A DNA stretch of 64,000 nt from Moorella humiferrea (lineage in GTDB: Bacteria > Bacillota > DSM-521 > Neomoorellales > Neomoorellaceae). The position numbers and the translations under genes were made by a program. Below the pieces are notes generated by a model. The model had not been told where the DNA came from. It did no database searches and saw only the letters and a list, made by a program, of their open reading frames with translations. Of the stretch, positions 8,172 to 44,474 are shown piece after piece; position 1 is the first letter of the stretch, and every line of letters starts with the position of its first letter. The stretch spans positions 2,330,001 to 2,394,000 of the forward strand of contig NZ_CP136419.1 of the NCBI RefSeq assembly GCF_039233145.1, written 5' to 3'.

Positions 8172-8192
8172 AAAATCCACCCTCCTGACTAC

Positions 8193-9089: not shown

Positions 9090-9680
9090 TTATGCCCCCT
9101 CCTTAACCATAACCAGGAATTCGTCGAGACCTATATAATAAACATGGGGCATTGTACCCAATTCTACCTTCAGTTGCCGGGCCGGGTTAACCGCCAGCAG
9201 CCGGGCGATATCGCTTTGGGGATCATTCAAGTCACCAAAAATACGGGCTTTACCCATACAGTTGTGCACACATGCCGGGGGTAACCCTTTTTCCATTCTT
9301 TCCCGGCAAAAATCACACTTTTCGGCCACTTTCGTATTGGGGTTAATAAATCGGGCATGGTAAGGACATGCTTCCACGCAATATCCACACCCAATACAAC
9401 GGTCACGATCAATTAAAACCACACCGTCTTCGCGCCGGTAAGAAGCCTTCACCGGGCATACCCGGACACATGGCGCCTTTTCACAATGATTGCAGAGTCG
9501 CGGTTGGAAATAGCGCCGTACTTCGGGAAATTTGCCTTTTTCCGCCATATTTACCCAGGAGCGAAAAAAACCCAAAGGAATTCCATTTTCCATTTTACAG
9601 CTTATGGTGCAGGACATGCAGCCTACACAGCGACGCAGGTCGATAACCATCCCGTACTTTTTAGGTTTAGCATCGGGCAC
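9090..9680 (-). CDS. four-cluster Fe-S electron transfer subunit (module 1)
   Basis: This 196-aa protein is of the DmsB/PsrB/TtrB ferredoxin-like family. It has four cysteine groups: CVGCMSCTISC, CNHCEKAPCVRVCP, CIGCGYCVEACP and CDFC with CVHNC, as expected for four [4Fe-4S] clusters that wire the anchor to the molybdenum subunit. GTG 9680 follows AAAGGAGG at eight bases. No signal peptide is seen, unlike the equivalent protein in the second module (44475-45383), so export probably relies on hitch-hiking with the Tat-bearing catalytic subunit. It is the first gene of the operon. The IS left end lies only 111 bp upstream and separates it from its ancestral upstream DNA. Confidence 0.9.
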   Translation of the reverse strand: MPDAKPKKYGMVIDLRRCVGCMSCTISCKMENGIPLGFFRSWVNMAEKGKFPEVRRYFQPRLCNHCEKAPCVRVCPVKASYRREDGVVLIDRDRCIGCGYCVEACPYHARFINPNTKVAEKCDFCRERMEKGLPPACVHNCMGKARIFGDLNDPQSDIARLLAVNPARQLKVELGTMPHVYYIGLDEFLVMVKEGA

Positions 9681-9791: not shown

Positions 9792-11367
9792 CACTAGCGT
9801 TGCATAAAAATTTTTAGCACAGTGCAAGGCAATATATGGAAGGCAGAATATGTTATATAATAACATTAATGGTGTATACAACCATGCATTTTCTTCCTTC
9901 ACTGGCCAAAGGACTTAGGTTATCAGGGGTAGTCCTTATCCACATATTGCCATATAAAGTTGCTTAAAGAACTAAGGGGTCATAAGTTACGTCGTTTAAA
10001 TAATCAGCTTCGCCAGCTAAAACTTGCTTTACTAAATCCTGATAGATGCCTTCATAGTCTATCTTGTGCCGCCCATAAGACCTTCGTTTGGGTTTACGGT
10101 GCAGGCTTTGGACGAAGAAGGTAAAGGGCTCATATAGACAGGTGCGGATTAAACGTTTAATAGTGAGCAATGGTCCTTGATAGCCGGCCTTTAATTGCAG
10201 CATAACCATCAGGCAGTAGGTTATTAGCGCTATGAAGAGCTGGTTTTCTACAGCCTGTTCGCTTTTACCATAAAAATGTTTCACCTGCAGGTGTTGTTTC
10301 ATCCATTTGAAGAAGAGTTCTATCTGCCAGCGCTTACGATAAATCTCGCTTAATTCTTCCGCCGGTAACTCGAAATCATTGGTGACTATAATTACCGGTT
10401 GCCCTTGGGTATCTTCGGTTGTTATCAGCCGTAAAGGGTGCTTCATTTTGGTAACTCCATCTTTGCCAAGGTAAACAAGCTGTTCCTTTTTAACCTTGCT
10501 GTCAGGGTTTACCGGCAACTCGGCGATTATTTCTACCAGAGCATTACCCTTTAAGCGGCTGGCAAAGCGGACGCCTTCTTCACAGTATCTGTCAAACTTC
10601 TTGTAATCGACATAGCCGCGGTCAAAGACGTTTAAGGCTTCTTCTTCCTCTACTACGAGGGTATCCATCTGGGTTTTATCTGCCTTCCGGGCCGGGGTGA
10701 CAATTGCTTTATCAGGTAGAACCTCTTCTTCACAGAACTTTAAGCGCAGGTGGAGTTTTATCCCGCTTTTAGTCCTACGAAACTCGGCCCAGAGGTACTG
10801 GGTAAAACAGAGACTAATGATAGTGGAATCGATGAGGTAAATACGTCCTGCGGTATTTCTTAAGTTTTCAAAGCCGATTTCCCGGCCTATCCGGGTGGTG
10901 AGATGGCTGAATAATAGCCGGATGAATTGCGGCGATAAATCCCTTAAACGGCGCGCTATCTGGGAGAAACTGATACTCTCTAAATTGATAGCCAGGCTAA
11001 ATTGCGGGTCATTGAAGCTATTGCTGATATCCCGCAAGCCATTAAGTTGTTCCAGCTGAGCGAAGGCTATTAGTTTAATGAGTTGAAGGGAATTTAGCTT
11101 CTTAGCGTACTTATCGACCCCCATACCGGCGGTTAACTGCCAAAAATAGTCGTTAGAAACTGGAGCAAACAGTTGATGAAATGTGGATAATGTGGTATCC
11201 TTACCTTGCATTTGGGCCTCCTTATGTTAGAGGTTGGGGCAAGGACTACCCTCAATCTCTAGTATAAGGAGTTTTTTCTTGCAAGGCTAGGTTATTTCAG
11301 GAATTTGGCTGTTTTTTGGGCGTTATTTCCCTTGACAAGTTTATTTTTTCTTTATGCAACGCTAGTG
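9792..11367 (-). mobile_element. IS4-family insertion sequence, copy 1
   Basis: A 1576-bp element is bounded by terminal inverted repeats starting CACTAGCGTTGCATAAA (17 bp perfect). It encodes one 415-aa DDE transposase on the minus strand. As far as can be read it is identical, in reverse orientation, to the element at 12794-14369. Flanks are TTTTGCACT on the left and CGTTTGCTT on the right, so this copy has no matching duplication of its own. Each flank matches, as reverse complement, a flank of the other copy. This is the signature of an inversion by recombination between the two copies. Confidence 0.95.
9964..11211 (-). CDS. IS4-family transposase, copy 1
   Basis: The transposase has 415 aa. 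The DDE triad is visible as Asp128 (LIDSTI), Asp197 (VFDRGY) and Glu298 within the IS4 signature Y-(2)-R-(3)-E-(6)-K (Tyr291, Arg294, Glu298, Lys305; RWQIELFFKWMK). The start ATG follows AGGAGGCCCAA. The reading frame is intact and identical to the second copy, so the element was active recently and may still be. Confidence 0.95.
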   Translation of the reverse strand: MQGKDTTLSTFHQLFAPVSNDYFWQLTAGMGVDKYAKKLNSLQLIKLIAFAQLEQLNGLRDISNSFNDPQFSLAINLESISFSQIARRLRDLSPQFIRLLFSHLTTRIGREIGFENLRNTAGRIYLIDSTIISLCFTQYLWAEFRRTKSGIKLHLRLKFCEEEVLPDKAIVTPARKADKTQMDTLVVEEEEALNVFDRGYVDYKKFDRYCEEGVRFASRLKGNALVEIIAELPVNPDSKVKKEQLVYLGKDGVTKMKHPLRLITTEDTQGQPVIIVTNDFELPAEELSEIYRKRWQIELFFKWMKQHLQVKHFYGKSEQAVENQLFIALITYCLMVMLQLKAGYQGPLLTIKRLIRTCLYEPFTFFVQSLHRKPKRRSYGRHKIDYEGIYQDLVKQVLAGEADYLNDVTYDPLVL

Positions 11368-12057
11368 CGTTTGCTTTTAAATAAAATTATAACCGCCCAG
11401 GAAAGCGAACGCCAGCGTATCGCCCGCGAACTACATGATGAAACAAGCCAGTCCCTATCGGCCCTCCTGGTCGGCCTTAAAACGGCTGCCACCATGGCCG
11501 GCCAAAAGGAGGAAGGAGTGGAGAATATTTTGGAGGAGTTAAAGGAAGGCGTTAACCAGGCCTTAAAGGAACTCCACCGTATTATTTATGACCTGCGCCC
11601 CAGTTTACTTGATGACCTGGGGCTCATTCCGGCCCTTCGCTGGTATTTGGAAACGAAACTAAAGCCTACCGGTATCTGCCTAAACTTTAATATTGGAGGA
11701 AATCCCGGGCGCCTACCGGCGGAAATAGAGATAGCTATTTTCCGGATTACCCAGGAGGCCGTTACCAATATTATTAAATACGCTTCTGCGCGGCAGGTTG
11801 CCGTAGAATTGCATTTCTTTCAAGATGAGATTAAGCTTCAGGTTAAAGATGACGGTTGCGGCTTTGATATGGAGGCGGTGATGAATCCACGGAATGCACG
11901 CAGACCTCTAGGGATCCTGGGCATGAAAGAAAGGGCAAGATTGCTGGGGGGAGACCTGGAAGTGCGGACCGCCGCCGGGCAGGGTACGGAAATCAACGTA
12001 ACCTTACCTGTTAGCAAGGAGGAAGGTTATAATGGCCATCAAGGTTTTGATTGTTGA
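11305..12057 (+). pseudogene. NarX-type histidine kinase, C-terminal half (inverted fragment)
   Basis: From 11368 on, this is the catalytic half of the module 1 sensor kinase: HisKA_3 dimerisation motif ARELHDETSQSL, then an HATPase region with NIIKYASA, DDGCGFD and a closing LGILGMKERARLLGG. The open frame begins upstream inside the IS, at TTG 11305, which adds a hydrophobic 21-residue stretch (MAVFWALFPLTSLFF and on) fused in frame. Joining the N-terminal half (15110 down to 14370) to base 11377 restores one frame of 473 codons, the same length as the paralogue at 46249-47670. It was separated by IS insertion and then flipped. It still overlaps the regulator gene by 26 bp. Confidence 0.9.
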
Positions 12058-12679
12058 TGATCATACCCTCTTTAGGGCCGGCCTGAAGGCATTGCTGTCT
12101 TTCCAGGAAGATATCCGGGTAATAGGGGAGGCAGGTAACGGCGAAGAAGCTTTAAAATTAATTCGTTGCTTAAATCCGGATGTCGTGTTGCTGGATATTG
12201 CCATGCCAGGCCTTGACGGCCTGGCCGTAACCCGCCAGATTAAAGATTACAATGAAGGGATAAAAGTATTAATCCTGACCCAGCATGAAAACAGGGAGTA
12301 TTTGCTTCCGGCACTAAAAATGGGCGCTTCCGGTTACGTGTTGAAGAGGGCGGCTGCCGACGAGCTGGTAGCTGCCATCCGCTCCCTCTATGCCGGCAAG
12401 GCCTTCCTGGACCCCGCCATAACGGAAACGGTCCTGGCCGACTACCGTTATGGCGGGATGATGGAAGAGACAGATGAACTTGATACCCTGACAGAACGGG
12501 AGCGGGAAATCTTGATTCTGCTGGCCCAGGGCCGTACTAACCGGGAAATTGCCGGATTGCTGCATATCAGCAGTAAGACTGTAGATTTTCACCGCACCAA
12601 TCTAATGCGTAAACTTAATTTGCATAACCGCATCGAGTTAACTAAATATGCCTGGCGCCGTGGCCTGGTAAAACCTTAA
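12032..12679 (+). CDS. NarL/FixJ-type response regulator (module 1)
   Basis: This 215-aa regulator has a receiver domain (Asp9/Asp10, phospho-acceptor Asp55 in LLDIAMPG) and a C-terminal LuxR-type helix-turn-helix with LTEREREILILLAQGRTNREIA. ATG 12032 follows GGAGGAAGG within the end of the kinase frame, so the pair was coupled. The gene is intact but lies in the inverted segment, pointing away from the molybdoenzyme operon it most likely controls. Since its kinase is broken, phosphorylation would need another kinase, such as the one of the second module. Ancestrally it preceded the Fe-S gene, as its paralogue at 45549-46229 does. Confidence 0.9.
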   Translation: MAIKVLIVDDHTLFRAGLKALLSFQEDIRVIGEAGNGEEALKLIRCLNPDVVLLDIAMPGLDGLAVTRQIKDYNEGIKVLILTQHENREYLLPALKMGASGYVLKRAAADELVAAIRSLYAGKAFLDPAITETVLADYRYGGMMEETDELDTLTEREREILILLAQGRTNREIAGLLHISSKTVDFHRTNLMRKLNLHNRIELTKYAWRRGLVKP

Positions 12680-12793: not shown

Positions 12794-14369
12794 CACTAGC
12801 GTTGCATAAAGAAAAAATAAACTTGTCAAGGGAAATAACGCCCAAAAAACAGCCAAATTCCTGAAATAACCTAGCCTTGCAAGAAAAAACTCCTTATACT
12901 AGAGATTGAGGGTAGTCCTTGCCCCAACCTCTAACATAAGGAGGCCCAAATGCAAGGTAAGGATACCACATTATCCACATTTCATCAACTGTTTGCTCCA
13001 GTTTCTAACGACTATTTTTGGCAGTTAACCGCCGGTATGGGGGTCGATAAGTACGCTAAGAAGCTAAATTCCCTTCAACTCATTAAACTAATAGCCTTCG
13101 CTCAGCTGGAACAACTTAATGGCTTGCGGGATATCAGCAATAGCTTCAATGACCCGCAATTTAGCCTGGCTATCAATTTAGAGAGTATCAGTTTCTCCCA
13201 GATAGCGCGCCGTTTAAGGGATTTATCGCCGCAATTCATCCGGCTATTATTCAGCCATCTCACCACCCGGATAGGCCGGGAAATCGGCTTTGAAAACTTA
13301 AGAAATACCGCAGGACGTATTTACCTCATCGATTCCACTATCATTAGTCTCTGTTTTACCCAGTACCTCTGGGCCGAGTTTCGTAGGACTAAAAGCGGGA
13401 TAAAACTCCACCTGCGCTTAAAGTTCTGTGAAGAAGAGGTTCTACCTGATAAAGCAATTGTCACCCCGGCCCGGAAGGCAGATAAAACCCAGATGGATAC
13501 CCTCGTAGTAGAGGAAGAAGAAGCCTTAAACGTCTTTGACCGCGGCTATGTCGATTACAAGAAGTTTGACAGATACTGTGAAGAAGGCGTCCGCTTTGCC
13601 AGCCGCTTAAAGGGTAATGCTCTGGTAGAAATAATCGCCGAGTTGCCGGTAAACCCTGACAGCAAGGTTAAAAAGGAACAGCTTGTTTACCTTGGCAAAG
13701 ATGGAGTTACCAAAATGAAGCACCCTTTACGGCTGATAACAACCGAAGATACCCAAGGGCAACCGGTAATTATAGTCACCAATGATTTCGAGTTACCGGC
13801 GGAAGAATTAAGCGAGATTTATCGTAAGCGCTGGCAGATAGAACTCTTCTTCAAATGGATGAAACAACACCTGCAGGTGAAACATTTTTATGGTAAAAGC
13901 GAACAGGCTGTAGAAAACCAGCTCTTCATAGCGCTAATAACCTACTGCCTGATGGTTATGCTGCAATTAAAGGCCGGCTATCAAGGACCATTGCTCACTA
14001 TTAAACGTTTAATCCGCACCTGTCTATATGAGCCCTTTACCTTCTTCGTCCAAAGCCTGCACCGTAAACCCAAACGAAGGTCTTATGGGCGGCACAAGAT
14101 AGACTATGAAGGCATCTATCAGGATTTAGTAAAGCAAGTTTTAGCTGGCGAAGCTGATTATTTAAACGACGTAACTTATGACCCCTTAGTTCTTTAAGCA
14201 ACTTTATATGGCAATATGTGGATAAGGACTACCCCTGATAACCTAAGTCCTTTGGCCAGTGAAGGAAGAAAATGCATGGTTGTATACACCATTAATGTTA
14301 TTATATAACATATTCTGCCTTCCATATATTGCCTTGCACTGTGCTAAAAATTTTTATGCAACGCTAGTG
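12794..14369 (+). mobile_element. IS4-family insertion sequence, copy 2
   Basis: This is the second 1576-bp copy, opposite in orientation to copy 1, with the same 17-bp terminal repeats CACTAGCGTTGCATAAA. Left flank is AGTGCAAAA, right flank AAGCAAACG. Its right end lies inside the kinase gene: the terminal repeat supplies a His codon and the TAG that ends the N-terminal fragment. Confidence 0.95.
12950..14197 (+). CDS. IS4-family transposase, copy 2
   Basis: This is the same 415-aa transposase as at 9964-11211, with intact DDE residues (Asp128, Asp197, Glu298) and the YREK signature. ATG follows AGGAGGCCCAA. Confidence 0.95.
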   Translation: MQGKDTTLSTFHQLFAPVSNDYFWQLTAGMGVDKYAKKLNSLQLIKLIAFAQLEQLNGLRDISNSFNDPQFSLAINLESISFSQIARRLRDLSPQFIRLLFSHLTTRIGREIGFENLRNTAGRIYLIDSTIISLCFTQYLWAEFRRTKSGIKLHLRLKFCEEEVLPDKAIVTPARKADKTQMDTLVVEEEEALNVFDRGYVDYKKFDRYCEEGVRFASRLKGNALVEIIAELPVNPDSKVKKEQLVYLGKDGVTKMKHPLRLITTEDTQGQPVIIVTNDFELPAEELSEIYRKRWQIELFFKWMKQHLQVKHFYGKSEQAVENQLFIALITYCLMVMLQLKAGYQGPLLTIKRLIRTCLYEPFTFFVQSLHRKPKRRSYGRHKIDYEGIYQDLVKQVLAGEADYLNDVTYDPLVL

Positions 14370-15110
14370 AAGCAAACGGTAATTAGCCTCGGAAGTTCTC
14401 AGGCCGTCTATGCTTTCCTTTAACCGGCTGGACATCTCATTAAAACATACAGCCAGTTCCCCTAATTCATCATTACCCGCTACTTTAATCGTTTCTCCCA
14501 GGTAACCCTCCCCCAGGCGACGCAGGGAAAGGGTCAATTTCTCCAGGGGTTTAAGAATCCGCCGACTTAAAAATGAAGCCACCACCAGCGCTGTTAACAT
14601 GCCGATTATCGTTAATAAAATTACGGTCCTGGCCAATTTACCGGTGGCCTGCCGAACTTCCTGCTGGCTAAAACCTATATGCAGTTCGGCATCAAGGCCA
14701 TCAAGTATTTTGTACCCCACATCCCGAATAAGTCCCTGTTCGCTGTCCAAAATCCGCATGCTGGAACGTTCCCCGGGAGGTACCGGGTTAATATTAATAA
14801 GGCCGGCGGGAAAACCTTTAGGGAATGTATGAATGACCATCCCGGAGGGCAGACCGGTTACAAATGCATAAATGTTATTAGGGTTCATACGTACAACCGC
14901 TTCCAACATGCGTTGGACCACCAGAACGTCCCCATCCAACAATGGATTGGCAATATCTTCAGCTACTACCTGCACCAGAGAAAGTTCTTTATCTGCCACC
15001 TGATTATTTAGAGCCCTTTCAATCACCTGACGGGTACCTAAGACCATCAACAGTCCTAAAAAAACAACTATCCCAAAAACCGTCAGCAAAATTTTAGTTC
15101 GTAAACGCAA
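14364..15110 (-). pseudogene. NarX-type histidine kinase, N-terminal half (IS-truncated)
   Basis: This is the sensory half of the module 1 kinase. Transmembrane segment 1 (about residues 6-26), an extracytoplasmic sensor region (about 27-160), transmembrane segment 2 (about 161-183) and a HAMP linker (about 184-240) are visible. Translation runs into the IS: after ...EANYRLL the terminal repeat gives His and a TAG. The catalytic domains are missing here and are found at 11368-12057. Without dimerisation and ATPase domains the product cannot signal by phosphotransfer. The gene starts 25 bp after the PhnD-like lipoprotein gene, so the two were one operon. Confidence 0.92.
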
Positions 15111-16907: not shown

Positions 16908-17981
16908 TTACTTCCTGCTCGGTACCGCTCCATAATACCGCCGCTGGAAGCTTAAGGCCACGTTCACCAGGCCGATCATTACCGGTACTTCAATAAGAGG
17001 ACCGATGACAGCCGCGAAGGCCTGTCCGGAATTGATGCCGAAGACGGCTACGGCCACGGCGATGGCCAGCTCAAAGTTGTTGCTGGCGGCGGTAAAGGAA
17101 AGGGTTGTTGTCTGTTCGTAATTTACACCCAGGCGCATGCTGAGGAAAAAGGAAATTAAGAACATGAGGACAAAGTAACAAATCAAGGGAATGGCGACCC
17201 TTACCACATCCATGGGTAGGGAAACGATATACTGGCCCTTAAGGGAAAACATAACCACAATAGTAAACAATAGAGCAATCAGGGCCAGGGGACTGATCTT
17301 AGGGACAAAGGTCTTCTCGTACCATTCTTTGCCCCGGGCAGGCATCAGGGTGAAGCGGGTGATTACGCCGGCCAGGAAGGGGATACCCAGGTAAATGGCC
17401 ACGCTGGTCGCCACCTCGCCGATGGAGACATGGACTTTCATCCCCTGAAAGCCCAGCCACGCCGGCAGCAAGGTAATGAAAATATAGGCATAAATTGAAT
17501 AAAAAATAACCTGAAAGATGGAGTTCAGGGCCACCAGGGCGGCGGCGTACTCGGCATCACCCCGGGCCAGGCTGTTCCAGACGATGACCATGGCGATGCA
17601 GCGCGCCAGGCCGATTAATATGAGGCCGGCCATGTATTCCGGGTAATTGTGCAAAAAGATGATGGCCAGGATAAACATCAGGATGGGACCGATAATCCAG
17701 TTCTGGATAAGGGATAAGGCCATTACTTTACCGTTGCGGAACACCTTACCCAGTTCCTCGTATTTCACTTTGGCCAGGGGCGGGTACATCATGACGATCA
17801 GGCCGATGGCGATGGGAATTGAGGTTGTACCGACCGACATCTTATTCAGGGCATCCGCCACCCCGGGCACAAGATAACCCAGGGATACACCGAAGGCCAT
17901 GGCCAGGAAGATCCACAGGGTCAAAAAGCGGTCCAGCAGGGATAACCTGGCCACAGGTTGACTGTTGTCTGCAGTTGCCAT
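16908..17981 (-). CDS. acr3: Acr3-family arsenite efflux permease
   Basis: This 357-aa membrane protein with about ten hydrophobic segments is of the ACR3 (bile acid/Na symporter-like) class and exports As(III). Typical phrases are [16 protein letters not shown], which holds the conserved functional cysteine, and [21 protein letters not shown] near the C-terminus. It lies 109 bp downstream of an arsR gene on the same strand and has its own terminator, so arsR-acr3 is the transcription unit. Induction by arsenite is expected through the CVC-type ArsR. ArsC is encoded 13 kb away (30808-31236), so reduction and export are separate units here. Confidence 0.93.
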
Positions 17982-21810: not shown

Positions 21811-22326
21811 TTATTCCAGCAGCCCCTGCAGGGCGTTAAAGCGTTCACTATTGTCCGGCTCTGCCAGGGGCGGGCAATCCGCCAGGGCGTTCTCACCGCT
21901 CAGCAACCTGGCGGCAAAGGCCAGGCAGGTCAACTGGCCGCACCGGCGGCAATTGGTCCCGGGCAGCCATTTGTATATTTGCAGGGCTGTGGGCCTTTCC
22001 TTTTTGACGAAAGTGGGCGGGATTTCCTTTTGCCGCCGGTGGGTATCGTTGATTAAATCTTTGAGCCAGTCCAGCACCTGGAGGGCGTCCGTCATATTGA
22101 CGGCCTTGGCCATTGTAAGCTTGCGGGGGTAGAGGGTAATCAACCTGAACTCTTTCATAAAAGTCAGGTTTTTGCCGTAATGGTTATATACGGCATTCTT
22201 AATCACGGTATTAAGATAAGGTAATAACTCCTCAATGTCCCGGCTCAAAACCGCCTGCAGGCGGATCTTCTCTGCATCGGCCAGGCAAGTTTCCACTTTG
22301 GTGATGTCTATTTTTTCCAGAAACAC
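21811..22326 (-). CDS. Fe-S cluster (PF04060-type) protein
   Basis: This 171-aa protein has a C-terminal four-cysteine motif of the PF04060 Fe-S type: NCRRCGQLTCLAFAARLLSG...DCPPL. This domain occurs in the corrinoid Fe-S protein large subunit, in RACo-like and in RnfB proteins. The N-terminal 110 residues are not recognised (DITKVETCLADAEKIRLQAV and on). GTG 22326 is chosen because GGGGAGG precedes it; the frame extends to 22374. It converges with the split permease, with one base between stops, and lies downstream of the cysteine desulfurase on the same strand. An Fe-S redox or corrinoid-linked role is likely but not specified. Confidence 0.7.
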   Translation of the reverse strand: MFLEKIDITKVETCLADAEKIRLQAVLSRDIEELLPYLNTVIKNAVYNHYGKNLTFMKEFRLITLYPRKLTMAKAVNMTDALQVLDWLKDLINDTHRRQKEIPPTFVKKERPTALQIYKWLPGTNCRRCGQLTCLAFAARLLSGENALADCPPLAEPDNSERFNALQGLLE

Positions 22327-22417
22327 AGGCAGTACCTCCCCTCTGTCCGCTACTCTCATGAGTGTCAAACACAACCATCATGAAAATGGTCTAAAATAGC
22401 GAAGTTTCTCAAACGCT

Positions 22418-23569
22418 TCAGCTTGATATTTCAATAATCTCCTTTATCGCCGCTAAAAAGGCATCTATCTCTTCCGCGGTATTGAAATAACCCACGCTGG
22501 CCCGCACCGTTCCCCGCTCCAGGGTGCCGATGGTTTTATGGGCTAGGGGCGCGCAGTGCAGGCCCACCCGGACCATAATATCGTGGCCCTCGTCCAGGGC
22601 GTAGGCCACCTCTTCCGGGGCTAGCTCTTTTAGGTTGAAGGACACCACGCCCACCTTGCGCTCCGTTTCCCGGGGGCCATAGACGGTCACCCCAGGTAAG
22701 CCTGCCAGCCCCGCCAGCATCCTGGCCGTCAGCTCTTCCTCGTGGGCACGGATACGGTCGATCCCCTGGTTAAGTATATATTCCACCGCCGCTTTAAGGC
22801 CGGCGATACCTACCATATTCAATGTCCCGGCCTCAAAGCGGTCCGGCAAATTCTCCGGCATATACTCCAGGCGGGACACCGACCCGGTCCCCCCTTCCTT
22901 CAAGGAACGCAAATCCAAACCGGGACGTATATAGAGACCGCCGGTACCCGTAGGGCCGAGTAAGCCTTTATGACCGGTGAAGGCCAGGAAATCGATATCT
23001 AGTTCCCGGACATCGATGGGATATGCCCCGGCCGTCTGGGCGGCGTCCAGCAGAACCGGCACCCCGTACCGGTGGGCCGCGGCCGTAATTGCCTGTACCG
23101 GCATCACCGTTCCCGTAACATTGGAGGCGTGGGTGCAGACCAGCAGGCGCGTTTCCTCCCGGAAGGCCGCATCCAACTCTGGCATTAACAGTTCGCCGTC
23201 TTCCCGGCAGGGCACCACGGTAATGCTTATACCGCGTTCCTTCTCCAGGGTTTTCAAACAGCGCCAGACGGCATTATGTTCCATAGCCGTAGTAATGACA
23301 TGATCGCCGGGGTTCAACCAGCCCTTGAGGACCAGGTTGATTGCCTCGGTGGCGTTGGCCGTAAAGACGATGCGAGTGGCGTCATTAATGTTAAATAACT
23401 TCCCCAGTAGCCGCCGGCACTGGAAGACTATCTCTTCCGCCGCCAGGGCGCGGCGGTAACCGCCACGACCGGCGCTAGCCCCGATATTCTTCATAAAATG
23501 CTCCATGGCCTGCCAGACCGCCGGCGGCTTGGGAAAGGTGGTAGCGGCGTTATCCAGGTAAATGGCCAC
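22418..23569 (-). CDS. cysteine desulfurase family protein (class V aminotransferase)
   Basis: This 383-aa PLP enzyme releases sulfur from cysteine as a protein persulfide for Fe-S clusters or thiolation. It has the N-terminal YLDNAATTFPKP, the PLP lysine in FTGHKGLLGPTGTGGLY, and the C-terminal loop RVGLHCAPLAHKTIGT that carries the persulfide cysteine. This matches the subgroup often annotated TIGR01977. It starts at GTG 23569 after GGGGGTG. A hairpin with a T-run separates it from the upstream DGC/H-protein cluster, so it may be partly read-through. Its position suggests sulfur supply to that cluster. Confidence 0.9.
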   Translation of the reverse strand: MAIYLDNAATTFPKPPAVWQAMEHFMKNIGASAGRGGYRRALAAEEIVFQCRRLLGKLFNINDATRIVFTANATEAINLVLKGWLNPGDHVITTAMEHNAVWRCLKTLEKERGISITVVPCREDGELLMPELDAAFREETRLLVCTHASNVTGTVMPVQAITAAAHRYGVPVLLDAAQTAGAYPIDVRELDIDFLAFTGHKGLLGPTGTGGLYIRPGLDLRSLKEGGTGSVSRLEYMPENLPDRFEAGTLNMVGIAGLKAAVEYILNQGIDRIRAHEEELTARMLAGLAGLPGVTVYGPRETERKVGVVSFNLKELAPEEVAYALDEGHDIMVRVGLHCAPLAHKTIGTLERGTVRASVGYFNTAEEIDAFLAAIKEIIEISS

Positions 23570-23657: not shown

Positions 23658-23990
23658 TTAAGCCAGAAGCCCTTCAACCTCTTTTATAATTTCGTCAAAG
23701 GGGATATCTCCGGCATAACGCGGCGTGCCGTCGACCACTACCAGGGGCGCCGGGTAAGGGCCGTTAGTAAGGGCCCGCAGCTCTGACGGCACCTGATTCC
23801 GGGGTACTGCCCGGAGGTCGATGTAAACCGCCTCCGCCTGCCCGACGAACTTTTCCTCAAGCTGCTGCTGCAACTCGCCGACCTGCTTTTTAATCGCTGC
23901 CGTGGTCATGGCCGCACCGCCGCCACAACCGCAACCGCAGCCACCCCCGCTACTCGGGTAATCATAAATCTCCACTTTCACTTTAGCCAT
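23658..23990 (-). CDS. thioredoxin-like small protein with Gly/Cys-rich insert
   Basis: This 110-aa protein opens with a beta strand (VKVEIYDYP) followed by a striking Gly/Cys run (GGGCGCGCGGG, residues 15-25), then a helix and VYIDLRAVP. Its end PLVVVDGTPRYAGDIPFDEIIKEVEG looks like the C-terminal part of a thioredoxin or glutaredoxin fold. The Cys-Gly alternation could bind a soft metal(loid) or act as a redox site. ATG 23990 follows AGGAGGG. It is the last gene before the hairpin, 8 bp after a DGC gene. No exact family is recognised. Confidence 0.6.
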   Translation of the reverse strand: MAKVKVEIYDYPSSGGGCGCGCGGGAAMTTAAIKKQVGELQQQLEEKFVGQAEAVYIDLRAVPRNQVPSELRALTNGPYPAPLVVVDGTPRYAGDIPFDEIIKEVEGLLA

Positions 23991-23998
23991 TTTTAACT

Positions 23999-24418
23999 TT
24001 AACCCTCCTGCTTAATTTTTGTCACCTGCTCCAGGATAGCGGCCGCCACATGATCCACCATGGCCTTCTGCTCCCCTGTAAGCTCCCTAATGGATAAAGT
24101 GCCTTCGCCGATGTCTTCTTTGGCAATAAGATCGGTAACAACCACCTTGCCGCTCACCGGCCCGCTCAAGGCTTCGGTGGCCTTTAAAGCGCAACATTTT
24201 TCGCACCCGTCAATGGTTATCGTGGGATAATCGCGGGCGAAGTTGCGTTCTTCCTCGCCGCCGGCCATAAACAGCGGCAGGCATATAGTTACGAAATTAT
24301 AGCCCGGCCTGATGGAGCGCAGCACTTTCTGGGTGGCCAGGCGGGAAATGGTCCCCCCGGGGCAGGCCTCGCCGCTGCAGGAAATCAGGCCCACCGATAA
24401 TCTTCCTTCTTCGCTCAT
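23999..24418 (-). CDS. DGC-domain putative zinc-binding protein
   Basis: This 139-aa protein has the DGC core ITIDGCEKCCALKATE (about residues 70-85) and an N-terminal LISCSGEACPGGT cysteine loop. DGC proteins (COG4273) are small predicted metal-binding proteins named after the Asp-Gly-Cys motif; no activity is established. ATG 24418 follows GGAGGAG. It is one of three consecutive DGC genes in this operon, and the three differ strongly in sequence, so they are old paralogues with separate tasks. Confidence 0.8.
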   Translation of the reverse strand: MSEEGRLSVGLISCSGEACPGGTISRLATQKVLRSIRPGYNFVTICLPLFMAGGEEERNFARDYPTITIDGCEKCCALKATEALSGPVSGKVVVTDLIAKEDIGEGTLSIRELTGEQKAMVDHVAAAILEQVTKIKQEG

Positions 24419-24441: not shown

Positions 24442-24864
24442 TTATTTCTCCTCGCTGGCGTCATACCAGCGGTCGACTTTACCGGCCAGGTCGGCAGCCA
24501 GCTCGTCGGCAATCTGCCACCCTGCCGCCGTCAAGTGAGCGGCGGTACCGGCATCGACACCTCGGTGGTTGCGGAAGGCATCCACGGCGCGGACCCTTTC
24601 CACCACCACGCCGCCGGCCTGTTCGACGTTCTTGGCCGCGCAGAGCTTTGGGCAGCCGTCCACGGTAATGCACCTGGCCCCGTTGATCTCCTTCCTGGCC
24701 TCATCGTCGCCGTAAACCAGAAGGGCCAGGCACATGGTCGCCGCTTTATCGGGCCGCAGCTCTTTTACGGTCTTTAAAACTGCTTCCCGGCCCAGGAGGC
24801 CGTACATCTTGCCGATGCCGCTACAGGGGATGACGTAAACTTTGCGGAAGCTATTTCCCGGCAT
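24442..24864 (-). CDS. DGC-domain putative zinc-binding protein
   Basis: This 140-aa protein is the second DGC member: CITVDGCPKLCAAKNVEQAGG (about residues 65-85) with an N-terminal VIPCSGIGKMYGLLG loop containing a conserved cysteine. ATG 24864 overlaps the end of the upstream fusion gene by 14 bp, so translation is coupled. The C-terminal half is a helical DUF1847-like tail. Metal or metalloid binding is inferred from the motif only. Confidence 0.8.
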   Translation of the reverse strand: MPGNSFRKVYVIPCSGIGKMYGLLGREAVLKTVKELRPDKAATMCLALLVYGDDEARKEINGARCITVDGCPKLCAAKNVEQAGGVVVERVRAVDAFRNHRGVDAGTAAHLTAAGWQIADELAADLAGKVDRWYDASEEK

Positions 24865-25723
24865 TGAAATCAGCCACCTTTTCCTTCAATACTTCCAGAT
24901 AGCGCCGCCCGTCCAGTAAAAATTCGCGGTCAGCCTCAAAATTGGTCAGTTCCAGTTCGGCAATCCAGCCCTTTTCATAGGGGTTTTCATTGATGAGTTC
25001 CGGCGCCTCCAGGACGGCTTCATTAATGGCCACCACTCTACCGGTAACCGGGGAAACCAGCTCATACACCGCCTTGGCCGATTCGATGGTTCCCATCTCG
25101 CCGAATTGCTCCACTTCCGTACCTGGGTCGGGGGGCGTGACAAAGGTGATATCGGAAAGGTTCTGCTGCAGGTAGTCGCTGATGCCTACGCGGCCCCTGT
25201 TCCCCTCTACCTGCACCCAGCAGTCGTTCTCGTTGAAGTAAAAGCCTTCCAGGGGGACCCGGAAGATAAACTTATCGTGGCGATGGATAGCGTATTCCAC
25301 AGGGCCGGCAAAAAGACCGGTGTTTTCTTCCGATGCCCGGCCGGCTCCCTGTTCCATGAATACAGGCTGCCAGGAGCGCCAGACATCCTCTACAAAGGCC
25401 GCCGCCCCTGCCCCCAGCCGCCAGTCCGGGCCGGGATTATAGTCCCTCTTTTTAGCTTCTTCGGCCATGGTTATCTTGCGGGAAATCTTCAGGTTATTAT
25501 TGGCGGCAATGCGGCTGGCGCAGCGGGTGGCGCAGCCGTCGATAACTATGAGGTTTCCTTCCTGGAGGAGGGAGGCATAACGGGACGGCGCCGTCTGGTA
25601 AAGCACCGGGCAGATGATCTCGCCGTCCATAGCTGCCGCCATTTTGAGGGCCAGTTCCCGGGCCAGGCAGCCGGCTTCTTTATCCAGGCCGTTACAGGGT
25701 AAGATAACATACTTTGCCGCCAC
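24851..25723 (-). CDS. fusion of DGC domain and glycine-cleavage H-protein-like lipoyl domain
   Basis: The protein has 290 aa. Residues 1-90 are a DGC domain (Cys10, Cys19, IDGCATRC at 61-68). Residues about 140-288 are an H-protein fold: WVQVEGNRGRVGISDYLQ, then FGEMGTIESAKAVYELVSP with Lys217 at the position lipoylated in GcvH, then INENPYEKGW. No other glycine cleavage gene is in the window. Lipoate-binding H-like proteins (LbpA) occur beside sHdr genes in sulfur oxidation, and here an HdrA-like gene and a ferredoxin lie directly upstream. A dithiol lipoyl arm could carry sulfur or bind As(III). The DGC-H fusion itself is not one I recognise. It starts at GTG 25723. Confidence 0.85.
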   Translation of the reverse strand: MAAKYVILPCNGLDKEAGCLARELALKMAAAMDGEIICPVLYQTAPSRYASLLQEGNLIVIDGCATRCASRIAANNNLKISRKITMAEEAKKRDYNPGPDWRLGAGAAAFVEDVWRSWQPVFMEQGAGRASEENTGLFAGPVEYAIHRHDKFIFRVPLEGFYFNENDCWVQVEGNRGRVGISDYLQQNLSDITFVTPPDPGTEVEQFGEMGTIESAKAVYELVSPVTGRVVAINEAVLEAPELINENPYEKGWIAELELTNFEADREFLLDGRRYLEVLKEKVADFNAGK

Positions 25724-25725
25724 GG

Positions 25726-26013
25726 CTATTTACCCCCTTCTTGCTGGCGCAGGGCCTTGATTGTTTCCAGGACGCGGGATTTTTCGGGAAAGGAAATGGC
25801 GTCGGGTCCGCAGGTCTTGGCGCAGGCGCGACAGAAGACGACACAATTGTTGGGATTGGCCACGATAAGCCGGGGCTCTTCCTCACGGATTTCATATACC
25901 TGGTGGGGACAGAATTTAGCGCACTCCAGGCAGTAGTTGCACCTGGTATAATCAATCACCGGCGCCCAGGTGATCTTATCCCGCGGGACGCCCATAAAGG
26001 TAGTTTCAGCCAT
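25726..26013 (-). CDS. 2[4Fe-4S] ferredoxin-like protein
   Basis: This 95-aa protein has two cysteine groups: CNYCLECAKFCP and CVVFCRACAKTCGP. The second is spaced irregularly (CX3CX2CX3C), which resembles ferredoxins with one atypical cluster site. ATG 26013 after GGGAGGCGCG is preferred over the longer frame. It overlaps the HdrA-like gene by 8 bp and is followed after 2 bp by the DGC-H fusion. It probably carries electrons between the HdrA-like protein and the lipoyl or thiol partner. Confidence 0.82.
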   Translation of the reverse strand: MAETTFMGVPRDKITWAPVIDYTRCNYCLECAKFCPHQVYEIREEEPRLIVANPNNCVVFCRACAKTCGPDAISFPEKSRVLETIKALRQQEGGK

Positions 26014-26383
26014 TGGCTCGCGCCTCCCAATCTTTAAGGGCGTCGGCAACTTTCTGGAAGGCTTCTTCGGTGGTCAAATCGCGGATATCCAGGGGGTAAA
26101 AATCGGTCTTCATATCCATCCCGGCTGCCGTCAAGGCGTCCCGGAACATTTTATTCTGCATGTTGGGGGCACAGGCGGCAATCATGACCCTGCGGTGGGC
26201 CTTGAGGAAGTCGGCCAGGAAGCGGTCGCCGTCCTCCTCGCATAACTGGGGATGGATAAACCCATACTCCACCGGTAACTCAACCCGTACGCGGTTAATA
26301 AAGTCCCAGATGTCCATCTTGGCAAACCCCGGGCATTTGCCGGTGCAGACGCACATGATCAAACCCGGCCTTTCTTGAAGCAT
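26006..26383 (-). CDS. HdrA-like N-terminal domain protein
   Basis: This 125-aa protein matches the beginning of heterodisulfide reductase HdrA and related proteins. The segments are MCVCTGKCPGF (a cysteine loop like the Fe-S site before the flavin domain), then FIHPQLCEEDG, then RRVMIAACAPNMQNKMFRDALTAAG, which is equivalent to the VVAACSPRMHEPTF region, and FYPLDIRDLT. The FAD domain of full HdrA is absent. It is the first gene of the operon, with a consensus promoter 60 bp upstream. It suggests Fe-S-based electron transfer to or from a thiol, but the exact reaction is unknown. Confidence 0.75.
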   Translation of the reverse strand: MLQERPGLIMCVCTGKCPGFAKMDIWDFINRVRVELPVEYGFIHPQLCEEDGDRFLADFLKAHRRVMIAACAPNMQNKMFRDALTAAGMDMKTDFYPLDIRDLTTEEAFQKVADALKDWEARANG

Positions 26384-26442: not shown

Positions 26443-26470
26443 ATTATATAACTTTCTACTTATTTGTCAA
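26443..26470 (-). promoter_or_regulatory. promoter of the HdrA/ferredoxin/DGC-H operon
   Basis: Consensus TTGACA (26470-26465) and TATAAT (26448-26443) have a 16-bp spacer. Confidence 0.8.
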
Positions 26471-26529: not shown

Positions 26530-26862
26530 TCATTTTGTTTTGCCTTTGTTGAATCCCTGCATGAGGGCCATAGTCTCGGCAATCTCCCTGGCGATAATCT
26601 CCCCGGCCAGATCCAGTAGAGTAACGATGCGGGGATCCTTGATGCGGTAAATCACCCGTAAACCGTCTTTGGTGGCCTCGACAATGTCCTGTTTGCGCAG
26701 GACGGCCAGGTGCTGGGAGATGTTGGGCTGTTCTAATTCCAGCTCTTCCATCAGCTCACAAACGCAGCGCTCACCATGGCGTAAAAGTTCTATAATCCGC
26801 ACCCTGGTGGGGTGAGCCAGGGCTTTGAAAAATTCCGCTTTTAAATTATGGATGCGTTCCAT
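26530..26862 (-). CDS. ArsR-family metalloregulator
   Basis: This 110-aa winged-helix repressor has the ERCVCELMEELELEQPNISQHLAVLRK block. Cys33 and Cys35 form the CVC metalloid/metal site in helix 3. It lies directly upstream of the HdrA/DGC operon on the same strand, separated by 146 bp that hold that operon's promoter. It diverges from the MFS-DGC-AhpD operon across 348 bp. It could control both. It is clearly different in sequence from the other two ArsR proteins of the window. Confidence 0.9.
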   Translation of the reverse strand: MERIHNLKAEFFKALAHPTRVRIIELLRHGERCVCELMEELELEQPNISQHLAVLRKQDIVEATKDGLRVIYRIKDPRIVTLLDLAGEIIAREIAETMALMQGFNKGKTK

Positions 26863-28633: not shown

Positions 28634-29116
28634 ATGACACAACATGAAAATTGGTACCTTCCATATATGGATCAAAAGGTCAAGGGCATTAAAGTGGTAG
28701 AACGTCCGGCACCGGTAGCTATCTTTTACTGCGCCGGGGCCTCCAATGTAGGCCAGAGCACGGTACTGGGCAGCAACGCGGCTGCCCGGCGCCTAGGATA
28801 TGACCGGGCCGCCCTCCTTTGCCTGGCCAGCATCTCGGCCGGTTTGAAAAATGTCAGCCGCGCCGCTGCTGAAGCCAAAGGTATCGTGGCTGTAGACGGT
28901 TGCCCCATGCAGTGTGCCCGCCGCACCCTAGAAAAGGCCGGTTTCCACGTTAACGAGAGCCTGGTTGTTACCAGGGACTGCAATGTGCCCAAATCCTTTA
29001 TCCTGGAGGACGCCGCCGCTATTACCAACGTCGCCGAGGCCATTGTTGCTAGCGTAGAAAAAATCGAAAAGGGCCGGATGGAAGTTAGCGATGCGGGAGG
29101 TTATGATGCTAAGTAG
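28634..29116 (+). CDS. DGC-domain putative zinc-binding protein
   Basis: This 160-aa protein is the fourth DGC member. It has IVAVDGCPMQCARRTLEKAGF (about residues 80-100), an N-terminal loop FYCAGASNVGQSTVLGSNAA, and a 30-residue N-terminal extension not found in the others. It begins with ATG after GGTGGGATAG. It sits between the MFS exporter and the AhpD-like gene in one operon. A metal- or metalloid-handling role is inferred. Confidence 0.8.
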   Translation: MTQHENWYLPYMDQKVKGIKVVERPAPVAIFYCAGASNVGQSTVLGSNAAARRLGYDRAALLCLASISAGLKNVSRAAAEAKGIVAVDGCPMQCARRTLEKAGFHVNESLVVTRDCNVPKSFILEDAAAITNVAEAIVASVEKIEKGRMEVSDAGGYDAK

Positions 29117-30807: not shown

Positions 30808-31236
30808 TCAAGTATTAAAAATATCTTTCAGGAGCTGGGTCACCCTTTCCCGGATCTCGTCCCGAACGGTACGGAAAACCGCCATTATTTCCTCCTCATC
30901 TCCTTCGGCCTTGGCAGGGTCGCGGAGGGGCCAGTGTTCGCGACGAATGGTCGGTGGGGTCACGGGACACTTATCACGGGCATCGCCGCAGAGGGTGACA
31001 ATCAGGTCAGCCTTGCTTAAGATTTCCGGATCGATGGGGGCGGAGGTTTGCCGGGAAATATCGATTCCGGCTTCCGCCATAACCGCAACGGCGCGAGGGT
31101 TCAGACCGGCTGGCTCGATGCCTGCACTATAAACTTCCACTTTGTCCCCGCCCAGGGCCCGGGCGAAACCTTCAGCCATCTGACTGCGGCAAGAGTTGCC
31201 GGTACAGAGAAAAAGAATAACGGGCTTCTTTGGCAT
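30808..31236 (-). CDS. arsC: arsenate reductase, thioredoxin-coupled
   Basis: This 142-aa enzyme of the low-molecular-weight phosphatase fold reduces arsenate to arsenite. Catalytic Cys11 lies in the P-loop CTGNSCRS, and the relay cysteines Cys83 and Cys90 lie in [11 protein letters not shown], exactly the three-cysteine design of the thioredoxin-dependent class. ATG 31236 is chosen for AGAGGAGG upstream. Its product is exported by Acr3 (16908-17981). It is downstream of two radical SAM genes with a 138-bp gap, probably its own unit. Confidence 0.94.
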
Positions 31237-31374
31237 GAATATGCTGCCTCCTCTAACTACCCGGCAATGTCTAAAAGACACCGTCTACGCTCATGTTTTT
31301 GGGTAGCCATAGTATTTCTCTTTTAATACCAGTATTATTTACTCATGGTTAGACCAGTTTATCCTCCCGTAACC

Positions 31375-34629: not shown

Positions 34630-34998
34630 ATGGCTACGCGTAAATTAGGTATTCTACCATGTCAGGGCGCCTGTAATGTGGGAAATATGACGCATAAAGT
34701 AGCCCTCAAATTTGTAGACAACGAAAAAATCAACATGGTATGTTCCCTAGGACTCCCTCTGGCAATTCCTTCAATTATTGATATGGCCAAGGCCAATGAC
34801 CATTTTATTGCTTTAAACGGTTGTCCCATTAAATGTTCCTCTAAAGCCCTTGATAAAGTAGGCATTACCGATTATGAAGAAATTGTCCTGACCGGCGATT
34901 TCGGTATTGCTAAAAATAAAAATTTCGCCGATGAAACAGGTATGGACAAAGTGGAAGCAAAGGTAAAAGCAAGTATCGATAAATTTTTCGCAGACTAA
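34630..34998 (+). CDS. DGC-domain putative zinc-binding protein
   Basis: This 122-aa protein is the fifth DGC member and the most compact. It has GILPCQGACNVGNMTHKVALKF at the N-terminus and FIALNGCPIKCSSKALDKVGI in the core, where the DGC triplet is NGC. ATG 34630 follows TAGGGGG. It starts an operon with an ArsR regulator (17 bp later) and a DUF169 protein, behind a consensus promoter with a palindromic operator candidate. This is the clearest link between DGC proteins and metalloid sensing in the window. Confidence 0.82.
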   Translation: MATRKLGILPCQGACNVGNMTHKVALKFVDNEKINMVCSLGLPLAIPSIIDMAKANDHFIALNGCPIKCSSKALDKVGITDYEEIVLTGDFGIAKNKNFADETGMDKVEAKVKASIDKFFAD

Positions 34999-36765: not shown

Positions 36766-37662
36766 ATGGGCATCAACTCCTTAAGCCAGGCATTTCATTT
36801 CTTTTTTACCATTACCGTAGAACTGGTTGTCCTCTTCATCAGTGTCAGCTTCCTGGTTGGTTTGCTGCAGGAATATATACCAGCGGCAACCATCCAGCGG
36901 GTCCTCAGCGGTCGCCGGGGCCAGGGCAACATCCTGGGTGCAGCCCTGGGGGCCATTACTCCCTTTTGCTCCTGTTCCACTATCCCGATTATGGTAGGAT
37001 TGATAAATGCCGGCGCTCCCTTCGGCGCCGCCAGTTCCTTCCTCCTGGCTTCTCCCCTGCTCAATCCCGTCATCCTGGGTTTATTTCTGGCCTTTCTAGG
37101 ATGGCAGGCGACTGTAACCTACGCGGCTATAACCTTTATTCTTAGCGTCATACTTGGAGCCGCGTGGGAAAAACTCGGTCTTGCCGACCAGGTAAAGAGG
37201 GTCCGCATCAGCGGCGGCCACACCGACAACCAGGAACCACATGATTTCTGCTCCCGGTTAGTTCGTGCCCTAAACGGAGCGTGGCACCAGTTTATCGGTG
37301 TATTGCCCTATCTCTTAATCGGTGTGGCGATAGGTGCTTTTATCTACGGCTTTATCCCGGCCGAGTTCGTTGCCCGCGTAGCCGGCCCCGGCAACCCCCT
37401 GGCCGTCCCCGTGGCGGCAATTATCGGCATCCCCCTTTATATCCGCGTCGAAACCATGATCCCCATCGGTATGGTCCTGCTCCAGAAAGGTATGAGCCTA
37501 GGAACCCTTATTGCTTTAATTATCGGCGGCGCCGGGGCCAGCATTCCCGAAGTTACCTTGCTGGCGAGCATCTTTAAGCCTCGCCTGGTAGCGGCCTTCG
37601 TTCTTACTATCTTTACCGTCGCCGTCCTGGCCGGATATACATTTAATATAATTTTTGCATGA
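36766..37662 (+). CDS. ArsP-like permease (COG0701/DUF318)
   Basis: This 298-aa membrane protein has about eight hydrophobic segments. It has the family signature GAITPFCSCSTIPIMVGL (two cysteines near residue 68) and a second repeat with GIPLYIRVETMIPIGMVLL. ArsP members export trivalent organoarsenicals, and the CSCS cysteines are the expected thiol site; other COG0701 members have unknown substrates. ATG 36766 follows ATGGAGG. It lies in an operon between the PadR regulator and a Cys-rich DUF2703 protein, with 4 bp overlap into the open frame of the latter. Confidence 0.85.
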   Translation: MGINSLSQAFHFFFTITVELVVLFISVSFLVGLLQEYIPAATIQRVLSGRRGQGNILGAALGAITPFCSCSTIPIMVGLINAGAPFGAASSFLLASPLLNPVILGLFLAFLGWQATVTYAAITFILSVILGAAWEKLGLADQVKRVRISGGHTDNQEPHDFCSRLVRALNGAWHQFIGVLPYLLIGVAIGAFIYGFIPAEFVARVAGPGNPLAVPVAAIIGIPLYIRVETMIPIGMVLLQKGMSLGTLIALIIGGAGASIPEVTLLASIFKPRLVAAFVLTIFTVAVLAGYTFNIIFA

Positions 37663-37676
37663 GGAGGCTATATATA

Positions 37677-38399
37677 ATGGTGGAAAAGAAAGGATTGCTG
37701 TCCATGGTCTTTGGCCGGCAGGGAGGTTCTTGCTGTTCTATTCAAATTGAAGAGATTCCTGAAGGGGAAAACCAAACTTCTAATAACGCTTGCTGCTGCG
37801 CTTCTTCGTCAGCCGACCCGGAAAAACCCGAGGAAAAAGAGTCTCACCAGCGCACCATTGACATCGAATTTCTCTACCTGGACCTGGATGCCTGCACCCG
37901 CTGCCAGGGTACGGGGCGTAACCTGGATGAGGCCCTCCACGAAGTGGCCGGGGTTTTAGAGGCTACCGGGGTTAAGGTCAACTTGAAAAAGATTCACGTG
38001 CAAACGGAAGAACAGGCCTTAGCTCTGGGGTTTGTCAGTTCGCCTACCATTCGCATTAACGGCCAAGATATCCAGCTGGACGTGAGGGAAAGCCTCTGCG
38101 AATCCTGCGGCGACCTCTGCGGTGAGGATGTCGACTGCCGCGTCTGGGTATACCAGGGCAAGGAATATACCGAAGCCCCCAAAGGGATGATTATTGAGGC
38201 CATCTTGAAACATGTTTACGGCGGTGGGATAGAGGCCCCGGCTGAAAGGGAACCACTCAAGGAGTTGCCTGAGAATTTAAAGCGCTTCTTTGCCGCCAAA
38301 CGCAAAAAAGAAGAAGAAACCGCTGCCAGAAATATTGGTAAACAGGTAGCAACAGAAAGTTGCTGCGGTGTTTCCCCCGCGTCAAGATGTTGCAACTAA
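37677..38399 (+). CDS. Cys-rich DUF2703 protein
   Basis: This 240-aa protein has three parts. The N-terminal 60 residues have Cys clusters (GGSCCSIQ, NACCCASS). A DUF2703 thioredoxin-like domain (about 65-190) has CTRCQG, SSPTIRINGQDI (the cis-Pro loop) and CESCGDLCGEDVDCR. A charged tail ends in ESCCGVSPASRCCN. ATG 37677 follows GAGGAGG. The terminal CC pairs look like soft-metal hooks, similar to those of metallochaperones such as ArsD. It probably hands a metal(loid) or its thiol conjugate to the permease encoded just upstream. Chaperone function is inferred. Confidence 0.78.
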   Translation: MVEKKGLLSMVFGRQGGSCCSIQIEEIPEGENQTSNNACCCASSSADPEKPEEKESHQRTIDIEFLYLDLDACTRCQGTGRNLDEALHEVAGVLEATGVKVNLKKIHVQTEEQALALGFVSSPTIRINGQDIQLDVRESLCESCGDLCGEDVDCRVWVYQGKEYTEAPKGMIIEAILKHVYGGGIEAPAEREPLKELPENLKRFFAAKRKKEEETAARNIGKQVATESCCGVSPASRCCN

Positions 38400-43222: not shown

Positions 43223-43236
43223 GGATTGCACCTCCT

Positions 43237-44460: not shown

Positions 44461-44474
44461 AACTTCACCTCCCG

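Follow-up and report, generated by a model that had tools for sequence, protein, structure and literature searches.

We identified a protein in which a DGC domain is fused to a glycine cleavage H-protein domain, encoded in a fixed five-gene block that often lies beside arsenic resistance genes and was seen in some 80 sampled anaerobes, both bacterial and archaeal, suggesting that lipoic acid is used for arsenic handling. The gene was found in a 64,000-nucleotide stretch of the Moorella humiferrea genome (the window; NZ_CP136419.1, positions 2,330,001 to 2,394,000). Our main reading, to which we give a rough probability of 0.45, is that the fusion supplies the lipoyl carrier of a conserved module of five genes, which is probably induced by arsenic (a carrier/reductant model). 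The link of the block to arsenic is well supported, and its participation in the metalloid response in general is likely. On a broader and more tentative reading, the fusion, its partners, and the DGC family would jointly represent a system without a described counterpart, in which metalloids are handled with the help of lipoate and which is widespread among Asgard archaea and anaerobic bacteria. Lipoic acid would then be the arsenic-binding or arsenic-reducing arm of an Fe-S-driven complex, and DGC an arsenic-binding family. Searches of the full-text searchable literature returned no description of the DGC-H fusion or of the five-gene block.

The first-pass annotation had described the open reading frame as a DGC and H-protein fusion, and both the exact frame and the two Pfam domains, each above its cut-off, bore this out. 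By profile and conserved residues, with the D-G-C motif among the conserved cysteine positions, the product is a member of the DGC family (PF08859) and of the H-protein superfamily (PF01597). The gene has the following features:

24851..25723, minus strand: DGC-H fusion gene (Pfam DGC and GCV_H; 84-sequence alignment; AlphaFold2 mean pLDDT, 87.7)
25442..25708, minus strand: DGC domain, amino acids 6 to 94, with invariant Cys10, Cys38, Cys64, and Cys68 (Pfam; alignment)
24881..25240, minus strand: H-protein (lipoyl) domain, amino acids 162 to 281 (Pfam; structure match)
25073..25075, minus strand: codon of Lys217, the predicted lipoylation site, invariant in 84/84 copies (alignment)

Read from the window, the open reading frame starts with GTG at position 25723 and yields a product of 290 amino acids. 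The DGC model matched with an E value of 1.5e-17 (64 bits; cut-off, 27) and GCV_H with an E value of 5.6e-34 (117 bits; cut-off, 22.2), and both domains were scored in all 84 aligned fusion copies. The DGC part was initially placed at residues 1 to 90. The H part, thought to start near residue 140, begins at about residue 155 to 160, given that GCV_H covers residues 162 to 281. The claim that the lipoyl lysine is kept was correct: Lys217 lies within E-S-A-K-A, and K217, E214, and S215 are identical throughout the 84 copies. The same is true of Cys38, Cys64, and Cys68, and Cys10 is identical in all 82 copies covering the position. The only frequent cysteine of the fused H domain is C168 (60 of 84 copies).

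The AlphaFold2 model, built from the 84-sequence alignment, has two well-folded domains separated by a disordered linker (residues 126 to 135). Its C-terminal half superposes on H-protein structures with a TM score by target of ∼0.9 and a root mean square deviation of mostly 0.9 to 1.6 Å. A stand-alone model of the DGC domain gave only generic Rossmann-like matches (best Foldseek E value, 0.009; VIA Z scores of ≤8.6, little above those of unrelated rows), and we therefore claim no structural relative for it. The invariant DGC cysteines are placed at strand ends in the predicted model.

The strength of the H-domain match (E value, 5.6e-34) favors an ordinary spare GcvH for glycine cleavage or the reductive glycine pathway, yet this reading, already disfavored, is very improbable. 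Against the TIGR00527 gcvH equivalog, the fusion scored 105.5 bits, under the cut-off of 115.85; it just passed the looser subfamily model NF002270 (118.1 versus 117). When 83 different fused H domains were placed in a tree with 40 stand-alone GcvH sequences, among them the GcvH of the host's glycine cleavage system (GCS) and the host's second stand-alone H protein, a branch supported at 100/100 separated all fused domains from the rest. The observation that the window holds no glycine cleavage genes was also accurate: neither gcvT nor gcvP is linked to the fusion, and the host owns a gcvT-gcvH-gcvP set ∼270 kb away. We rejected the fusion as a glycine cleavage GcvH because it failed both the equivalog cut-off and the tree. 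The grouping of the fused H domains fits a single origin followed by spread.

Scanning a genome collection of 84,980 species turned up 93 fusion-encoding loci, 80 of which were retained. The 85 fusion copies counted below represent 84 distinct loci and take in related genomes, so that, given congeners and horizontal transfer, they cannot be counted as independent. Three more species of the genus carry the fusion at 92 to 93% identity, and within the phylum the query matched 9 of 398 genomes (8 at full length), among them members of four other families at 46 to 51% identity. Bacterial hosts include Clostridium, Caloramator, Desulfosporosinus, Acetobacterium, Eubacterium, Sedimentibacter, Bacteroidales, Armatimonadetes, Planctomycetes, Dehalococcoidales, and actinobacterial metagenome-assembled genomes, and archaeal hosts include Lokiarchaeota, Heimdallarchaeota, Jordarchaeia, and Sigynarchaeota. 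Plasmids yielded only ordinary GcvH-type matches, none spanning 80% of the fusion. The idea that the fusion makes lipoate a functional clue for the whole DGC family did not survive, because most DGC proteins stand alone (DGC occurs in 38 of 249 genomes of the phylum samples and the fusion in 9 of 398). The feature common to the family is an arsenic context, with ACR3, ArsA, ArsD, ArsM, or ArsC linked in 14 of 20 stand-alone DGC loci.

The genes surrounding the fusion in the window, together with the predicted promoter, are as follows:

26530..26862, minus strand: ArsR/SmtB regulator immediately preceding the block and carrying a CVC motif, GERCVCELME (NF033788, 104.8 bits; cut-off, 55)
26443..26470, minus strand: perfect sigma-70 consensus promoter (TTGACA-16-TATAAT) in the gap between arsR and the block (12/12; consensus match only)
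26006..26383, minus strand: HdrN, a stand-alone homologue of the HdrA N-terminal Fe-S domain, with five invariant cysteines (profile; alignment)
25726..26013, minus strand: 2[4Fe-4S] ferredoxin (Pfam Fer4_7 and Fer4; ATG at 26013, frame open from 26049)
24442..24864, minus strand: second DGC protein, DGC2 (Pfam DGC, 47.9 bits; alignment), overlapping the fusion gene by 14 bp
23999..24418, minus strand: third DGC protein, DGC3 (Pfam DGC, 63 bits; alignment; AlphaFold2 pLDDT, 89)
23658..23990, minus strand: small CGCGCGGG protein, present in 5 loci, all in this genus (cluster table)
22418..23569, minus strand: cysteine desulfurase of the EF2568 family, an optional neighbor (TIGR01977, 491.7 bits; cut-off, 377)
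21811..22374, minus strand: Fe-S domain protein, an optional neighbor (PF04060)

The block runs HdrN-ferredoxin-fusion-DGC2-DGC3; the first-pass annotation had missed it, along with its minus-strand orientation and the arsenic context. Within 8 kb of the 85 fusion copies, tblastn recovered HdrN in 81, ferredoxin in 78, and DGC2 and DGC3 in 84 each, and exceptions to the order are mostly contig ends or overlapping gene calls. The block genes in the window overlap or almost touch, and the gap downstream of arsR that holds the sigma-70 consensus measures 146 bp. Thioredoxin/CcdA-type proteins are further optional members of fusion loci.

A profile of HdrN found HdrA N termini as its best three PDB matches (7bkb, 9sfi, and 5odc; E values, 0.0011 to 0.016), with 4 of the 5 invariant cysteines aligned, and the NCBIfam HdrA model matched a relative (E value, 4.9e-6). 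Nothing credible was found for HdrN in Pfam. At 125 amino acids it covers only about residues 3 to 93 of HdrA, which rules out a full-length HdrA with the FAD domain. The DGC3 profile gave chance matches only against PDB, and the small CGCGCGGG protein matched neither Pfam nor NCBIfam.

Further stand-alone DGC genes lie in the window at 28634-29116 and 34630-34998, one preceded by an MFS transporter and followed by a CMD-family protein, the other followed by ArsR and DUF169; the genome has no more than five DGC genes, every one of them inside the window. In most of the Asgard copies L107, L110, L113, L115, L117, and L119, three extra genes adjoin the block, encoding a protein with a DGC-like cysteine pattern (c731), a small cysteine-containing protein (c732), and a conserved 240-amino-acid protein (c733).

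The HdrA-related partner and the cysteine desulfurase, which is linked in 20 of 85 fusion loci, recall the sulfur relay of LbpA, an H-protein relative known from sulfur oxidation (PMC6067878). In an sHdr-LbpA-like relay, the lipoyl arm would carry sulfane sulfur from the linked desulfurase, possibly for making thioarsenic species or for loading DGC. This is improbable: the desulfurase is linked only in a minority of loci, the two extra cysteines marking most LbpA proteins are absent from the fusion, no full Hdr complex or other sulfur oxidation gene was recognized in the block, and the regulators belong to the metalloid (Cys-x-Cys) type.

Evidence for the arsenic link comes from the neighborhood of the fusion, which in the same region of the window includes two further arsenic resistance genes:

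16908..17981, minus strand: ACR3 arsenite efflux transporter (TIGR00832, 465.6 bits; cut-off, 282.8)
30808..31281, minus strand: ArsC, thioredoxin-type arsenate reductase (TIGR02691, 202.9 bits; cut-off, 174.3)

Of 85 fusion loci, 46 had ACR3, ArsA, ArsD, ArsM, or ArsC no more than 8 kb away, versus 0 of 20 stand-alone gcvH loci (Fisher P = 2e-6), the latter being a small control drawn from a single phylum, that of the window. The tested ACR3, ArsA, ArsD, and ArsM examples passed curated cut-offs, as did the window's ArsC; an ArsC example from another locus (L098) fell below, with 82 of 215 bits. None of the five arsenic genes occurred within 8 kb in 39 of the 84 distinct fusion loci, in some cases because contigs end, and 26 of these 39 still carry ArsR or an ArsP-type permease. 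Based on linkage to arsenic-specific genes beyond chance, the fusion can be classed as a probable ars operon component.

Among the ArsR proteins that lie nearest in an upstream or divergent position, all 35 of the clostridial/Asgard type carry the Cys-x-Cys motif, and those of Bacteroidales loci mostly have adjacent cysteines in its place. The motif is also found in Cd/Pb/Zn sensors such as CadC, and Cys-x-Cys ArsR proteins also sense cadmium and lead. The module might thus serve another thiophilic metal or metalloid (antimony, mercury, cadmium, or zinc), sitting in mixed resistance islands with DGC as a zinc-binding protein, a reading helped by CDF and ArsP-type transporters nearby and by four invariant cysteines that could hold zinc. 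We consider it likewise improbable, as the neighbors over curated cut-offs (ACR3, ArsA, ArsD, and ArsM) are specific to arsenic.

Distant HdrN homologues lie by ArsR in 12 fusion-free loci, 11 of which have ferredoxin next to HdrN, and most of which carry ACR3, ArsC, ArsA, or ArsD. Together with the stand-alone DGC loci, these indicate that DGC and the ferredoxin-HdrN pair are each linked to arsenic independently of the fusion. Eleven of the loci (L224 to L232, L234, and L235) have ArsR-ferredoxin-HdrN without DGC-H, mostly beside ACR3, ArsC, ArsA, or ArsD, and look like a sister system of smaller size; the remaining locus, L233, instead combines ArsR with a truncated HdrN and a dihydrolipoamide dehydrogenase (Lpd). 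That the ferredoxin and HdrA-like protein are invariant partners of the fusion, and also occur as a pair alone in arsenic loci, could mean that the module is a reductase and nothing more. Its dithiol, reduced by this pair or by Lpd, would then reduce either a pentavalent arsenical (arsenate, methylarsonate, or thioarsenate) or the oxidized thiols of DGC proteins, and arsenic would be a passing substrate, not cargo. We think this unlikely: a dedicated ArsC is already present in 20 of 85 loci, including the window, and three DGC proteins, each with four invariant cysteines, would be left unexplained.

The tie between the fusion and lipoate made in the first-pass annotation was strengthened by the neighbors, with Lpd linked in 38 of 85 fusion loci and lipoate-protein ligase (LplA), for which a search had been suggested, in 17 of 85. 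Two Lpd neighbors tested matched the TIGR01350 equivalog (494 and 491 bits; cut-off, 409), and two LplA neighbors matched the TIGR00545 equivalog (422 and 435 bits; cut-off, 280). The host genome encodes LipA (394 bits) and LplA-like genes, as well as a LipS1/LipS2-type, LplAB, and H-protein cluster ∼36 kb from the fusion. This region of the genome (L039; 2312982-2319284, ∼11 to 17 kb before the window) encodes a stand-alone H protein, two radical SAM proteins, one of which matches LipS2 slightly below cut-off, an LplAB-like ligase, and an HdrB/HdrC-like pair, and looks like a LipS1/S2 lipoate assembly route.

All intact-fusion genomes searched contain a lipoate ligase-type match, weak in one. 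In a congener genome rated 100% complete (G014), searches found neither an H protein nor a lipoate ligase match, nothing exceeded the LipA cut-off, and HdrN is missing too. The fusion of that genome has lost its lipoyl half through a deletion, with DGC1 joined to DGC2 (L038 8797-9210). This single case is anecdotal, but it is what would be expected of an H half that depends on lipoylation to function. The LipA and ligase-type genes of the host give it the genomic capacity for lipoylation, of which Lys217 is the predicted site.

Arsenite poisons dihydrolipoyl enzymes, and from this textbook effect one could also propose that the fused lipoyl domain is a decoy, a sacrificial sponge protecting or repairing arsenite-poisoned lipoyl enzymes. 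Such a role is highly improbable, since a sponge requires neither an HdrA-like nor a ferredoxin partner and since most fusion hosts, which we take to be fermenters or acetogens, presumably have few lipoyl enzymes to protect.

In the carrier/reductant model that we prefer, Lys217 would carry lipoate, whose disulfide would be reduced to the dithiol by electrons from the universal ferredoxin/HdrA-like pair or, optionally, by NADH through Lpd. The dithiol arm would bind trivalent arsenic, possibly after reduction of a pentavalent form, and would exchange it both with the two free DGC proteins and with the four-cysteine site of the DGC domain to which it is fused. From DGC, arsenic would go on to efflux (ACR3/ArsA) or methylation (ArsM). 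The vicinal dithiol behind the arsenite sensitivity of lipoate enzymes would here be an arsenic handle. The sequence-based part of the model comprises the fusion, its invariant lipoyl lysine, the four DGC cysteines, gene order, linked Lpd and lipoate ligase, metalloid-type ArsR, and arsenic resistance neighbors; from these we infer the probable chemistry of the module and its probable binding of arsenic. Several points count against the model: fewer than half of the loci have a linked Lpd or LplA, 39 of 84 have none of the five arsenic genes nearby, Cys-x-Cys motifs occur in Cd/Pb/Zn sensors as well, the loci are related to one another and the control is small, and a pure chaperone would need no ferredoxin/HdrA-like pair.

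Molybdopterin oxidoreductase, NrfD-like, and Fe-S operons flank the arsenic region at 5346-9680 and 40067-45383, each near a PhnD-like protein/kinase/regulator set; their catalytic subunits score only below cut-off, one as PhsA/ArrA-like and one as TtrA-like (510 bits). Identical transposase genes lie inverted at 9964-11211 (minus strand) and 12950-14197 (plus strand). With these transposases go 11305-12679 and 14364-15110: the C-terminal half of a histidine kinase and a response regulator lie between them on the plus strand, and the matching N-terminal kinase half lies outside the pair on the minus strand. An insertion sequence-mediated inversion may have split the sensor kinase of a binding-protein/kinase/regulator set. 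At 37659-38399, a cysteine-rich DUF2703 protein (DF family, a selenoprotein family here in its cysteine form; the score is below cut-off) follows an ArsP-type permease (36766-37662) that is distantly SaoE-like. We dropped the SAO selenoprotein system as an explanation because this permease scored far under the cut-off (99 versus 325).

If the lipoate-dependent reading is true, lipoate has a role beyond 2-oxoacid and glycine metabolism and sulfur oxidation, and the best-known target of arsenite has been turned into a defense device. The uncharacterized DGC family (PF08859) would gain a testable arsenic-handling function, and the fixed gene block would mark those anaerobes and Asgard archaea that respond to arsenic in a distinct way.

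Several known systems resemble parts of this module. The GcvH of glycine cleavage has the H-protein fold and lipoyl lysine in common with the fusion, which differs in its separate clade, its N-terminal DGC domain, and its lack of a GcvT/GcvP link, the host's GcvTHP being separate. GcvH-L (5a35; Foldseek rank 22), which we take to belong to SirTM/macrodomain operons, is likewise a noncanonical H-like lipoyl protein but has no DGC domain. LbpA, the lipoate-binding protein of the sulfur-oxidizing heterodisulfide reductase-like (sHdr) system, is similar in being a GcvH-like lipoyl carrier outside carbon metabolism with an Hdr-related partner, a lipoate ligase gene nearby, to which archaeal clusters add one for Lpd, and ArsR-family regulation (PMC6067878, PMC10332631). 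Most LbpA proteins have two extra cysteines near the N and C termini, and some archaeal LbpAs have been noted to be without them. The fusion differs from LbpA in its attached DGC, in its partner, merely an HdrA N-terminal domain plus ferredoxin, and in its surroundings of arsenic rather than sulfur oxidation genes; we did not file it under LbpA because both the two extra cysteines and an shdr gene cluster are missing.

Other DGC proteins (PF08859, "putative zinc-binding protein") share with the fusion the four invariant cysteines and a context of ACR3 and ArsR; here, in contrast, a lipoyl carrier is attached and a DGC trio occurs in one operon. The ArsD/ArsA/ACR3 and ArsM systems are similar to the block in having ArsR-linked small cysteine-containing proteins by efflux or methylation genes. 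The block differs from them in that DGC is a family distinct from ArsD and in that its makeup includes Fe-S electron carriers as well as a lipoyl arm.
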